Made by a program: the position numbers and the translations under genes. Positions 8,431 to 12,505 of a DNA stretch of 56,099 nt are shown here, in pieces; position 1 is the first letter of the stretch, and each line of letters opens with the position of its first letter. This stretch comes from Thermoanaerobacterales bacterium (GTDB taxonomy: Bacteria > Bacillota > Thermosediminibacteria > Thermosediminibacterales > Tepidanaerobacteraceae). The notes beneath the pieces are model-generated. The model was not told where the DNA came from. It made no database searches and was given only the letters and a program-made list of their open reading frames with translations. The stretch lies in contig DUMA01000041.1 of the NCBI GenBank assembly GCA_012840135.1, positions 1 to 56,099 on the forward strand, given 5' to 3'.

Positions 8431-8656
8431 ACCAGGTTTAATTGGGGTACCTCTCGGACTGCTACAGCTTAATTGGGGACACTCCTCCGCTTACCCATAT
8501 ATCGGAAGCCGGATGTCAGAATTGGCAAATCCAGCTTAATCTGACCTCGGAAGACTGACCTCTGCTATAGGAGGTGCGCCCCCTTACCTAAGATGGGGAC
8601 ATTCCTCCGCCTCCCCCAGAGGAATACCCCAGAAAAGGAGGTGCGTCCCCTTACCT
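8431..8656. repeat. Cluster of short GC-rich palindromic (REP-like) repeats
   Basis: The 384-bp gap between divergent genes contains recurring units. TTAATTGGGG occurs at about 8438 and 8469, the latter continuing as GGGGACACTCCTCCGC. AGGAGGTGCGCCCCCTTACC lies at 8569-8588, GATGGGGACATTCCTCCGCC at 8592-8611, and AGGAGGTGCGTCCCCTTACC at 8636-8655. The GGAGG and CCTCC cores alternate in orientation, so successive units can fold into hairpins. This is the look of REP-type dispersed palindromes. No transposase is beside them. Confidence 0.6.
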
Positions 8657-8761
8657 ATTAATAATTTCCTCTTTCCCGAAATATATTTTACTAAAGAATA
8701 CTTGCTTTCGGAGGGGGTCTATCAGAATTATACCATTATGATTATGACTGGAGGAATCATT

Positions 8762-9439
8762 ATGGCAAATTCGGGGAAGACCAGATTTACGCTCCTTGCC
8801 ATTTCACGGCTTTACAACACCCGCATAAGCCTTGTGGGAGTTGATGAGAACAGGCGGTGGATAAGGCCTATGCCCATGTATCAGTCCGACCTCTATAACG
8901 GCGGGCAAAAGGTTTTCGAAATATTCGGGGTGACCGAGATCTGCTTGAATGACTGGTGGGGCACGGCTCCGCGGCCCGAGGACCGATTTTTTGTGAGAAA
9001 CGAACAGCAAATCCCATCTCTAATCAAGACATTAAGCGATGTGGAGAGAATGAGGCTGCTGCGCTCCCTTCTGGACTCATCGGTAGACTCCATATTCAGC
9101 CGGGGCAGGACCCTCGGGCTCATAAAACCTACCGTCAGGGAAGTCAATTTCCGGCGAAATCCTTACAATCCCATGGAATACGAAGCCCGATTCATATTCG
9201 AAGATGGCACTGCCGGTTTTGAACATAACTGGATGGCTACCGACCTTTTATGGCATCAAAAATTTCATGACTTCATCCGGGAAAACCCCGGCATGCTTTC
9301 GGCAAAATTAAAGGAGACAAAAGACATGCTTAACACCCGGGAAACATATTTTGTGGTGGGCCTTACCAGGATTTTTCTTGAAAATCCCGGACCCTACGGT
9401 GGCTGCTGGCCACAGGTGCTGGGGGTGTTAGTTTTGTAA
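8762..9439 (+). CDS. Uncharacterised protein, possibly dual-OB-type domain
   Basis: A 225-residue soluble protein with no signal peptide or membrane segment. The N-terminal half carries AISRLYNTRISLVGVDENRR followed by WIRPMP and a short beta-rich segment. This resembles the start of the dual OB-fold (DuOB-like) proteins, which also have an invariant W-I-R-P turn; the match is by eye and weak. The second half is charged and mixed (FIFEDGTAGFEHNWMATDLL, FVVGLTRIFLENPGPYGG). The ATG at 8762 is set by GGAGGA at 8751-8756. A strong terminator follows at 9473. DuOB proteins occur near nucleic-acid or defence genes, but no such genes adjoin this one. Confidence 0.5.
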   Translation: MANSGKTRFTLLAISRLYNTRISLVGVDENRRWIRPMPMYQSDLYNGGQKVFEIFGVTEICLNDWWGTAPRPEDRFFVRNEQQIPSLIKTLSDVERMRLLRSLLDSSVDSIFSRGRTLGLIKPTVREVNFRRNPYNPMEYEARFIFEDGTAGFEHNWMATDLLWHQKFHDFIRENPGMLSAKLKETKDMLNTRETYFVVGLTRIFLENPGPYGGCWPQVLGVLVL

Positions 9440-9472
9440 GATAGAGCGGTAAGCAGGTGAGGCGCTGGCCTA

Positions 9473-9507
9473 CCCTTGATGCAGACTGGCATCAGGGGTT
9501 ATTTTTT
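9473..9507 (+). terminator. Intrinsic terminator
   Basis: CCCTTGATGC pairs with GCATCAGGGG (one G-T pair) around a 6-base loop, followed by TTATTTTTT. It separates the uncharacterised gene from the selenoprotein transcription unit. Confidence 0.85.
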
Positions 9508-9540
9508 AATGAAAAATTAGTATAAAAATATAAATACTCA

Positions 9541-9569
9541 TTGACAGCGAAAAAAATTAATAGTATAAT
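9541..9569 (+). promoter_or_regulatory. Consensus sigma-A promoter of the selenoprotein gene
   Basis: TTGACA at 9541-9546 and TATAAT at 9564-9569, both perfect consensus hexamers, have a 17-bp spacer. The expected start is near 9576, about 20 bases before the ATG. Confidence 0.85.
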
Positions 9570-9595
9570 AAAATCAACAAACGGAGGTGAAGAGA

Positions 9596-9883
9596 ATGGC
9601 AAATATAGAAATAGATGAAAAGGCTAAAAAATACATTCGGGATAGGAACAATGATACCATCACCATTAAGCTGGAGCGCTACGGCGGCGGTTGAGCAGGC
9701 TGCACCTATATGCCTGCCGTGTACGTAGGCGCACCTGCTGATACCAATGAATACACTCTAACAGAAGTAGACGGCGTAAAAGTATATATCAGCCCCTTTG
9801 TCAGCACAGAAAAAGGGCTCAAGATATTCCTCTCGGGCTTCGGTATGTTCAAGGGCCTGGCGGTGGCACCGCTGAGCTACTAG
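9596..9883 (+). CDS. HesB-like / CC-Se-motif-type selenoprotein (in-frame UGA at codon 33)
   Basis: The frame begins at an ATG behind GGAGGTGAAGAG and reads MANIEIDEKAKKYIRDRNND then TITIKLERYGGG. It meets TGA at 9692-9694 and continues as AGCTYMPAVYVGAPADTNEY to a TAG at 9881-9883, giving 95 residues if UGA is selenocysteine. The sequence after the UGA is clearly protein-like (VDGVKVYISPFVSTEKGLKI). The GGGU-A-G-C context resembles the small HesB-like/CC-Se selenoprotein family found in anaerobic Firmicutes, whose function is unknown. A perfect 6-bp hairpin sits directly after the UGA. The unit has its own consensus promoter and is convergent with the triple-HTH regulator, 6 bases apart. A nonsense pseudogene is the alternative, but promoter, ribosome site and codon integrity argue against it. 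Confidence 0.8.
9692..9717 (+). promoter_or_regulatory. Candidate bacterial SECIS element
   Basis: Immediately after the UGA, GCAGGC (9695-9700) and GCCTGC (9712-9717) form a perfect 6-bp stem around an 11-base loop beginning UGCACC. The position directly 3' of the UGA, with a G early in the loop, fits bacterial SECIS elements read by SelB. The UGA-to-loop distance is shorter than in the best studied examples, so the exact fold is uncertain. Confidence 0.55.
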
Positions 9884-9889
9884 TTTGAA

Positions 9890-10660
9890 TCAGGACTTCC
9901 GGTGTTCCTTATAAAGCTGTATGAACTTCAGGATGAAACTGAACTCTTCAGCCGTGCAGTCTGCCACCAGCTCCAGGACGGAGCGGACTTTCGGGTCTAA
10001 AAAAAGTTCTTTTAAAGCCGGGTTCATGGGCTTGAATAACGATGATATTTCATCATCGTCCGCCACGAAGTAGCATGGTGAAAGCGAGAGCGCCGATGCA
10101 ATCTTTTCCAGAGTCTTTATGGAAGGTTCCACCCTGCCGCTTTCGATCTGACCGATGAGGCCCGTGGACACACCGGCTTTTGCGGCCAGTTCCGCCTGGG
10201 TGAGATCCCGTTCCCGCCGGATCTTCTTTATCTTGTATCCCACATGGCTGGTGGAGGATATCAGATCTTCCGGGCAAACTTCCAGAGCCCGGGCGATAGT
10301 CCTCAAAGTGGACACCGCCGGCAGCACCTTGCCCTTCTCTATATGGCAGAGATAGGCTGCGGAAATGCCGGCCTTTTCCGCCAGCTGAGATTGGGAAAGG
10401 CCTTTTTTCTGGCGCAGGAGGGTTATCTTTTCACCGAGAGCCGTGGGACCGGAGGTAATGGTATCTGCTTCGGGGAAAAAACCTTCTTTTGAAACGTTTA
10501 AGGCTGAAGCCAGCTTGTCTATGGTTTCGAGAGATGGCTGCTTTTTGCCCCGCTCAATTTCGCTCAGGTAAGAAACCGAAAGTTCAGCCTGCCGGGCAAG
10601 CTCCTGTAGCGACAAATTGCGCTTGCGACGAAAGCTGCGGATCAATCTGCCGTCTATCAT
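9890..10660 (-). CDS. XRE-family transcriptional regulator with three tandem helix-turn-helix domains
   Basis: A 256-residue protein made of three consecutive Cro/C1-type HTH domains at about residues 5-60, 76-132 and 142-198. Each contains the L-x-Q-x-E-L-A and S-x-x-Y-L-S/G-x-I-E-x-G pattern (LSVSYLSEIERGKKQPS, ISAAYLCHIEKGKVLP, VSTGLIGQIESGRVEPS). A helical tail of about 55 residues follows. Most XRE regulators have one such domain. The ATG at 10660 is preferred over the one at 10666 because AAAGGA then lies 9 bases upstream. A long perfect inverted repeat in its promoter region is a likely autoregulatory operator. The target genes are unknown; the convergent selenoprotein gene and the thioredoxin gene flank it. 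Confidence 0.88.
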   Translation of the reverse strand: MIDGRLIRSFRRKRNLSLQELARQAELSVSYLSEIERGKKQPSLETIDKLASALNVSKEGFFPEADTITSGPTALGEKITLLRQKKGLSQSQLAEKAGISAAYLCHIEKGKVLPAVSTLRTIARALEVCPEDLISSTSHVGYKIKKIRRERDLTQAELAAKAGVSTGLIGQIESGRVEPSIKTLEKIASALSLSPCYFVADDDEISSLFKPMNPALKELFLDPKVRSVLELVADCTAEEFSFILKFIQLYKEHRKS

Positions 10661-10728
10661 AAGCATACATCCTTTCGAGAGCTAGTAATTTATTGGAAAA
10701 GTAGTTTATCATAGTTTAACATAATTAT

Positions 10729-10755
10729 ATATACTATAAATCAATTATAGTATAT
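10729..10755. promoter_or_regulatory. Perfect 11-bp inverted repeat, candidate operator
   Basis: ATATACTATAA (10729-10739) and TTATAGTATAT (10745-10755) are exact reverse complements with a 5-base spacer. They lie in the 276-bp AT-rich region between the divergent XRE regulator and thioredoxin genes, about 70 bp before the regulator start. TAGTTTA is also repeated just beside it (10701-10718). The layout suggests dimer binding, most simply by the XRE protein itself. Confidence 0.55.
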
Positions 10756-10936
10756 TAAAACTCCAGGGTCAATTTTAAAAATCGTCATTTTTTGATAACC
10801 GATTGAAAAACTTATTAGTGAAAGTGAAATAATAAAAAAGACATACCATCAGCGACGCGTTTCTCACCTAAATCAAATTTAAGAAAGGCCCCACGGGGGC
10901 GAAAATCTTAAAATTAAACTAAAGGAGGATTTCATA

Positions 10937-11251
10937 ATGAAACCGATAACCGTCACCGATGAGAATTTTGAGCAGGAAGTACTTCAGGCCGAGGGTAAAG
11001 TCCTGGTGGATATGTGGGCACCCTGGTGCGGCCCATGCCGCATGATGGGTCCCGTAGTGGAAGAGATCGCCGCTGAATACGAGGGCACCCTCAAGGTATG
11101 CAAGCTGGATGTGGATGAAAACCCGCAAACGGCAGCCCGCTACGGGATAATGAGTATCCCCACACTCCTGGTGTTTGAAAACGGCCAGGTGGTAAATAAG
11201 CTTGTGGGCTTCAGGCCAAAGCGCGACCTTCTTGCAGAAATCGGCATATAG
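10937..11251 (+). CDS. trxA: Thioredoxin
   Basis: A 104-residue thioredoxin, the cytoplasmic disulfide reductant. The active site WCGPC has its cysteines at residues 31 and 34, the preceding segment VLVDMWAP is typical, and the cis-proline is in SIPTLL (Pro75). AAAGGAGG lies 9 bases before the ATG. Upstream is a GC hairpin (GGCCCCACGGGGGC, about 10886-10899) in the leader, and an intrinsic terminator follows, so the gene is a single unit. No thioredoxin reductase is adjacent. Redox partnership with the nearby selenoprotein is conceivable from position only. Confidence 0.95.
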
Positions 11252-11265
11252 TCTTTCGAAAATAA

Positions 11266-11303
11266 AAACAAAAACCCTGCCCTCCGGCGGGGCTTTTGTT
11301 TTT
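11266..11303 (+). terminator. Intrinsic terminator after thioredoxin
   Basis: A GC-rich hairpin (CTGCCCTCCGGCGGGGC) is flanked by A-rich and T-rich arms (AAAACAAAAACC and CTTTTGTTTTT), the pattern of a bidirectional terminator. Confidence 0.75.
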
Positions 11304-11362
11304 GCGGTATACGGCACTGAAAACTGAACATCCGAGACTTCGAATTTAAACAATGGATAATG

Positions 11363-11391
11363 TTGATAATAATTAGTAATAGTAATATAAT
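11363..11391 (+). promoter_or_regulatory. Sigma-A promoter of the OYE gene
   Basis: TTGATA at 11363-11368 and TATAAT at 11386-11391 are separated by 17 bp. A small inverted repeat, TACCA-TTTGT-TGGTA (11405-11419), lies just after the expected transcription start and could be an operator. Confidence 0.7.
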
Positions 11392-11479
11392 AAAAACAGC
11401 ATTTTACCATTTGTTGGTATACAGTAGATCTATATGTTTAAATTTTGTTCATCAAAATTAAATTAAGAGGTGACAGAAC

Positions 11480-12505
11480 GTGAGCAAACTGTTCGAGGAG
11501 TTTTCTTTGAAGGGCCTAAAACTTAAAAACCGCATCATGATGTCCCCCATGTGCATGTATTCGGCCGGCGATGACGGAAAGCCCAACGATTGGCATTTCG
11601 TCCATTATGCCACGCGAGCTGTAGGAGGCGTGGGGCTCATCATGCAGGAGGCCACTGCTGTGGAAAGGAGGGGCAGGATCAGCGCCAACGACCTGGGACT
11701 CTGGGAGGATTCTCAGATAGAACCCCTGAAAAGGATAGTAGATTTTGTCCATTCCATGGGGTGCAGGATGGGGGTGCAGCTGGCCCATGCGGGAAGAAAG
11801 TGCGGCGTAAAGGGCGAAAGGATCGTGGCTCCTTCCAGCATGAACTGGAGTGAAGAATACCCGGTGCCGGCAGAACTTTCGAAGGATGAAATAAAAGACA
11901 TTGTCAGAGCTTTCGGCCTTGCAGCAAAAAGGGCCGTGAAAGCAGGCTACGATACCGTGGAAGTACATGCAGCCCATGGATACCTGCTTCATGAATTTCT
12001 TTCGCCCTTGTCCAACAGGAGGGATGATGAATACGGCGGTTCCAGAGAAAACAGGGTCAGGTTTCTGAAAGAGGTTTTGATGGAAGTCCGCTCCGCCATT
12101 CCCGAAAGCATGCCCCTTTTCGTGAGGCTGTCTGCCACCGACTTTATGGAGGGCGGCCTTGATATAAATGAAACCATTGAAATAGTAAAGATGATTAAAG
12201 ACCTGGTGGACATAGTCGATACCAGTGCCGGAGGCCTTCTCTCTCCAAAGCTGGAACTTTTCCCGGGATACCAGATAAATTATTCGGAGGCCGTGAAAAG
12301 AACTACCGGCATTCCCACCGCAGCCGTAGGCCTCATCACCACCCCGGAACTGGCAGAAGAGGTCATAGGCAACAAAAGGGCGGACCTGGTGGCTCTGGGA
12401 AGGGTCATGCTTCGCCAGCCTTACTGGCCCATGTATGCAGCCCATGTATTGAAAGAGGATATCCCGGTTCCCGAGCAGTACTTGAGGGGAAAGTACAGAA
12501 TTTGA
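11480..12505 (+). CDS. NADH:flavin oxidoreductase, NamA/YqjM-type old yellow enzyme
   Basis: A 341-residue FMN-dependent ene-reductase. It opens with the family's NRIMMSPMCMYSA, which contains the redox-tuning cysteine (Cys25) typical of the YqjM/NamA thermophilic-like subclass. It also has WHFVHYATRAVGGVGLIMQE, the His pair in EVHAAHGYLLHEFLSP, and the C-terminal phosphate-binding segment LVALGRVMLRQPYWP. Such enzymes reduce activated C=C bonds with NADPH. Length is normal and there is no Fe-S/FAD extension of the 2,4-dienoyl-CoA reductase type. The GTG start follows AAGAGGTGAC. The gene has its own promoter and stands alone. Confidence 0.92.
   Translation: MSKLFEEFSLKGLKLKNRIMMSPMCMYSAGDDGKPNDWHFVHYATRAVGGVGLIMQEATAVERRGRISANDLGLWEDSQIEPLKRIVDFVHSMGCRMGVQLAHAGRKCGVKGERIVAPSSMNWSEEYPVPAELSKDEIKDIVRAFGLAAKRAVKAGYDTVEVHAAHGYLLHEFLSPLSNRRDDEYGGSRENRVRFLKEVLMEVRSAIPESMPLFVRLSATDFMEGGLDINETIEIVKMIKDLVDIVDTSAGGLLSPKLELFPGYQINYSEAVKRTTGIPTAAVGLITTPELAEEVIGNKRADLVALGRVMLRQPYWPMYAAHVLKEDIPVPEQYLRGKYRI

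Follow-up and report, generated by a model that had tools for sequence, protein, structure and literature searches.

A-type Fe-S carriers of the IscA/SufA group are defined by three conserved cysteines, including a C-terminal CGC. The HesB-like selenoprotein (TIGR01911) is of the HesB/IscA type and carries its selenocysteine (Sec) in a UxG motif, UxGP. The family NF041239, 'CC/Se motif family (seleno)protein', is included in a 2026 review of prokaryotic selenoproteins as a high-confidence prediction, where the entry reads 'hypothetical protein predicted in Moorella thermoacetica', with the motif CxxU and one Sec only (PMC13188914, Table 1). The gene described below belongs to this already catalogued family and, since NCBI has a curated model for it, does not lie outside existing annotation knowledge.

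The window, meaning the whole stretch of 56,099 nucleotides that was analysed, comes from a genome of 3.18 Mb with a completeness of 99.4% (G000). The locus has the following features:

9472–9509, plus strand: intrinsic terminator of the upstream gene (8762–9439), with an 11-pair stem, a 6-nt loop and a T-run
9541–9569, plus strand: promoter TTGACAGCGAAA...TATAAT with a 17-nt spacer, 12/12 hexamer matches
9583–9589, plus strand: Shine-Dalgarno sequence GGAGGTG, assigned from the sequence
9596–9883, plus strand: predicted selenoprotein gene with UGA as Sec at codon 33, 95 residues, NF041239, UxxC subtype (GGGUAGC)
9692–9694, plus strand: putative Sec codon UGA (Sec33), assigned from a Sec/Cys column invariant in 39 sequences and from the tRNA-Sec in the genome
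9695–9717, plus strand: hairpin directly after the UGA, present, not conserved, its 3′ arm overlapping the 5′ arm of the next feature
9713–9729, plus strand: predicted SECIS hairpin CCUGC-CGUGUAC-GUAGG, assigned from pairing and covariation, the RNAalifold consensus and a peak of synonymous conservation
9890–10666, minus strand: convergent regulator with three HTH_3 (XRE) domains, conserved neighbour
10937–11251, plus strand: thioredoxin, conserved neighbour

The reading frame runs from ATG 9596 through 32 sense codons to TGA 9692–9694 and then through 62 sense codons to TAG 9881–9883. This arrangement, the Shine-Dalgarno sequence, the TTGACA/17/TATAAT promoter and the upstream terminator had all been described in the original prediction, and each was found in place. 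Translation with Sec at the TGA gives MANIEIDEKAKKYIRDRNNDTITIKLERYGGGUAGCTYMPAVYVGAPADTNEYTLTEVDGVKVYISPFVSTEKGLKIFLSGFGMFKGLAVAPLSY. An ORF listing with standard stops contains only 9710–9883 (57 residues). A gene that standard callers would trim to this fragment is almost certainly an intact selenoprotein gene in which UGA codon 33 is decoded as Sec, and its SECIS can now be placed.

The guess that the protein belongs to the CC/Se-motif family is exactly what the NCBIfam profile search returned. NF041239 scored 93.3 bits, where the cut-off is 40, with residues 3–91 corresponding to positions 2–89 of the 91-position profile. Searching with the downstream peptide brought up two Thermoanaerobacterales MAGs and one Tepidanaerobacteraceae MAG as named relatives. 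The alignment proposed earlier as a check of position 33 has Sec or Cys in this column in 39 of 39 sequences; nearly all Sec-form relatives have their TGA at this codon, and most Cys forms have CC. The motif itself varies among relatives and takes the forms GGGU-AGC (as in the window gene), GGGU-CG, CxxU-AG, C-U and CC (the Cys forms). In L057 and L065, both of them remote homologues, the site holds neither Sec nor Cys.

The machinery for Sec incorporation is encoded contiguously in the source genome (G000:C1:25414–29912), all four genes lying on the same strand:

C1:25414–25504: selC
C1:25578–27449: selB
C1:27470–28840: selA
C1:28989–29912: selD, with one in-frame TGA (Sec-containing)

ARAGORN also detects a tRNA-Sec with the anticodon TCA in the genome. 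The original prediction had named these four genes as the ones to look for, and its central claim, that codon 33 is Sec, is supported both by their presence side by side and by the Sec or Cys of the aligned homologues.

The family NF041239 was found in 57 of 149 related genomes, most copies having exactly one TGA, and selA scored above the cut-off in 56 of the 57 holders. The exception, G004, carries a decayed copy in which ATA replaces the start codon and the frame is broken. In the taxonomic family of the source genome, an intact copy was found in 5/5 genomes that have selA and in 0/8 that lack it, where the gene is gone or decayed (Fisher p 0.0008, a nominal value since the genomes are related). 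Genome completeness ranges from 68 to 99%, which makes single absences weaker than the overall pattern. That sister genomes without selA have lost the gene amounts to a natural test of its dependence on Sec. In several genomes without the gene, the promoter now adjoins the 3′ end of the regulator gene. Relatives without selA (L093, L096 and L098–L101) lack the selenoprotein gene and have kept its promoter beside the regulator gene.

The hairpin that would direct Sec insertion had originally been placed directly after the TGA. A perfect 6-bp hairpin does exist there (GCAGGC, 9695–9700, with GCCTGC, 9712–9717), but it is not conserved: only 68% of cells are paired across 26 sequences, covariation does not rise above the level of shuffles, and the region folds no better than shuffled sequences (z 0.35). 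It was rejected as the SECIS. The hairpin at 9713–9729 is paired in 130/130 cells across 26/26 relatives, with 12 compensatory cells at two pairs; the covarying positions belong to conserved codons, and the proportion of paired cells is therefore partly due to coding constraint. Sliding the pairing by one to three columns lowers it to 42% or less, and RNAalifold independently chooses the same hairpin. The two hairpins share sequence and are mutually exclusive.

Since the stem lies in conserved codons, synonymous codons were compared as well. The same codon is kept in 71% of synonymous pairs at codons 40–45 against 42% elsewhere, the peak of conservation extends over codons 37–45, and among 90 windows of six codons the best is the one beginning at codon 37. 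GTG encodes Val42 in 29/29 sequences. The published bacterial SECIS model specifies a stem of 4–16 bp, a loop of 3–9 nt with a G among its first two positions, a distance of 16–37 nt after the UGA and an MFE threshold of −7.5 kcal/mol. The 9713–9729 hairpin agrees with it in stem length, loop size, loop G and spacing: the stem has 5 bp (short; 6 in the consensus), including one G-U pair, and the 7-nt loop CGUGUAC, with G in position 2, starts 23 nt after the UGA. An Rfam scan of 8500–11500 gave no SECIS family match, only sub-threshold chance hits. The SECIS is most likely the 9713–9729 hairpin and not the one adjoining the UGA. SelB and tRNA-Sec would decode UGA codon 33 under the direction of this element, located inside the coding sequence. 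Comparison among relatives and their genomes gives good support for Sec decoding, the position of the SECIS, the fold (as a model) and dependence on the Sec machinery.

Relatives belonging to two families keep the order of selenoprotein gene, triple-HTH regulator and thioredoxin; in L019 and L020, which represent a third and distant family, the thioredoxin gene directly follows the selenoprotein gene. This conserved link is a concrete starting point for working out what the CC/Se motif family does, listed in the review only as a predicted selenoprotein. On the other side of the gene, window positions 8762–9439 encode a 225-residue protein that had no Pfam or NCBIfam match; its gene also adjoins the selenoprotein gene in L039 and L074.

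Of 29 sequences, 18 have a TTGACAGCGAAA-type motif upstream of the orthologous gene. The full TTGACAGCGAAA-N-TATAAT pattern was found in 22 of 61 relatives, at one or two sites per genome, and the reversed control gave 0 matches. Among relatives (L079–L106) it also precedes NapH-like ferredoxin-type membrane proteins, a thioredoxin-glutaredoxin protein and a ferredoxin, and the genes behind it form a candidate redox regulon. In three more distant orthologues (L027, L034 and L036), TTTCGC stands upstream of the −35 box instead. Another gene behind the same promoter (L090, G027:C110) encodes an FmdB-like small protein with an in-frame TGA near the C-terminus (GSPFGUG), possibly another selenoprotein.

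The AlphaFold2 model of the window protein has a pLDDT of 91. Comparison with Foldseek and VIA-align gave IscA (Z 8.8) and SufA (Z 8.2) as the top folds, with unrelated folds at 2.8 or lower; the IscA structure 1r94 is matched with Z 8.8 and an rmsd of 3.0 over 89 residues. A PDB sequence search with the family profile gave nothing relevant, though the fold search gives IscA/SufA. The IscA/SufA/ErpA profiles match weakly (SufA, 18.6 bits against a cut-off of 136.2; TIGR00049, 18.3 against 58.8), and Pfam Fe-S_biosyn, at 16.3 bits, does not reach its cut-off of 26.3. We take Sec33 to stand at the place of the first IscA ligand Cys, going by the shared G-[CU]-x-G motif and not by a computed superposition. 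The protein has Sec33 and a single cysteine, Cys36, and its C-terminus (...GLAVAPLSY) has no CGC, which is also missing in the aligned Sec relatives.

Both the biochemical role and the partnership with thioredoxin are what we infer from these features. A selenol/thiol redox protein is preferred over an Fe-S scaffold because there is only one Cys and no C-terminal CGC. A thioredoxin-linked role of the UxxC motif, as opposed to that of a three-cysteine scaffold, has about an even chance of being correct. Sec33 and Cys36 would form a selenenylsulfide, the neighbouring thioredoxin would reduce it, and the protein would act in thiol or chalcogen redox handling.

The main rival to the redox role accepts Sec insertion and makes the protein an IscA-type carrier of Fe-S clusters or metal, bound through Sec33 and Cys36, perhaps between the subunits of a dimer. 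The predicted fold and the weak profile matches are in line with it, as is the occurrence of the same promoter before Fe-S proteins in relatives. It has to contend with the missing CGC and with a conserved neighbour that is a thioredoxin, and we consider it possible but rather doubtful.

A true stop at the TGA would imply either a recent nonsense mutation in a pseudogene or two small genes, of 32 codons and of 57 codons from ATG 9710. An ORF from ATG 9710 to 9883 does exist, and an open 62-codon frame by itself has a chance of about 2.6%. However, relatives with the Sec form almost all have TGA at this very codon, the two halves form a single predicted IscA-type domain, and the distribution of the family tracks selA. 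Purifying selection is similar on both sides of the TGA, dN/dS against the closest relative being about 0.09 after it and 0.11 before it. A chance origin of the frame is excluded because of the homology (E 7e-27) and this low dN/dS after the TGA. Both the pseudogene and the two-gene variants were rejected on the relatives' TGA and the selection downstream, and a true stop is very improbable.

Reading of the UGA as Trp or Cys, through code reassignment or near-cognate read-through, could appeal to the Cys found at the site in some homologues, but it is extremely unlikely: the code is standard, because TGA is the ordinary stop of 14 of the 48 long ORFs of the window, and reassignment was rejected on this ground; none of the aligned homologues has Trp at the site; the genome has a complete Sec operon, tRNA-Sec included; and a conserved SECIS follows the UGA.

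The source genome contains a paralogue of the same family outside the window (G000:C38:60305–60592; L041, L110), with TGATGA at the position of the CC motif. Such a copy was found in 11 genomes, the source genome and ten others (relatives L042–L051 and L116). One covarying SECIS was found for the two adjacent UGAs, its structure having been fitted after the data were seen. By the closest family model, the copy of the source genome scores 34 bits, below the cut-off, and two other copies pass. Aldehyde ferredoxin oxidoreductase (AOR) is a tungsten-enzyme family. In the taxonomic family and order of the window, the TGATGA copy mostly lies between genes for AOR and a ThiS-like protein and a [FeFe]-hydrogenase-like gene; in G014, too, a divergent copy comes after an AOR gene. 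The paralogue is probably a Sec-Sec protein, made with two UGAs and one SECIS within an AOR/ThiS-like/[FeFe]-hydrogenase-like cluster, in which case the window gene would represent the UxxC variant within a variously recoded family. If this is true, the active-site Cys pair of the family is recoded as UxxC, UC, CU, CxxU, UU and CC, and how a single SECIS can act on two adjacent UGAs becomes a question of its own. A search confined to the open-access literature, with most subscription journals outside its scope, turned up no bacterial case of adjacent Sec codons.

Compared with known systems, the window protein is closest to NF041239, to which it is a full-length match of the same size with a single Sec. 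The motif given in the review is CxxU, whereas the window protein has UxxC (GGGUAGC), with Cys at +3 and not at −3 or +1. With IscA/SufA/ErpA, it shares the predicted fold and presumably has Sec33 where these have their first ligand Cys, but it has a single Cys, no C-terminal CGC and scores far below the curated cut-offs. The HesB-like selenoprotein resembles it in being of the HesB/IscA type, with its Sec in a UxG motif; the window protein, however, has UAGC and no UxGP, and TIGR01911 is absent from its NCBIfam matches at E up to 1. Thioredoxin-type UxxC selenoproteins have the UxxC motif in common with the window protein, the gene of which lies near a thioredoxin gene, but its predicted fold is IscA-like and not thioredoxin-like.
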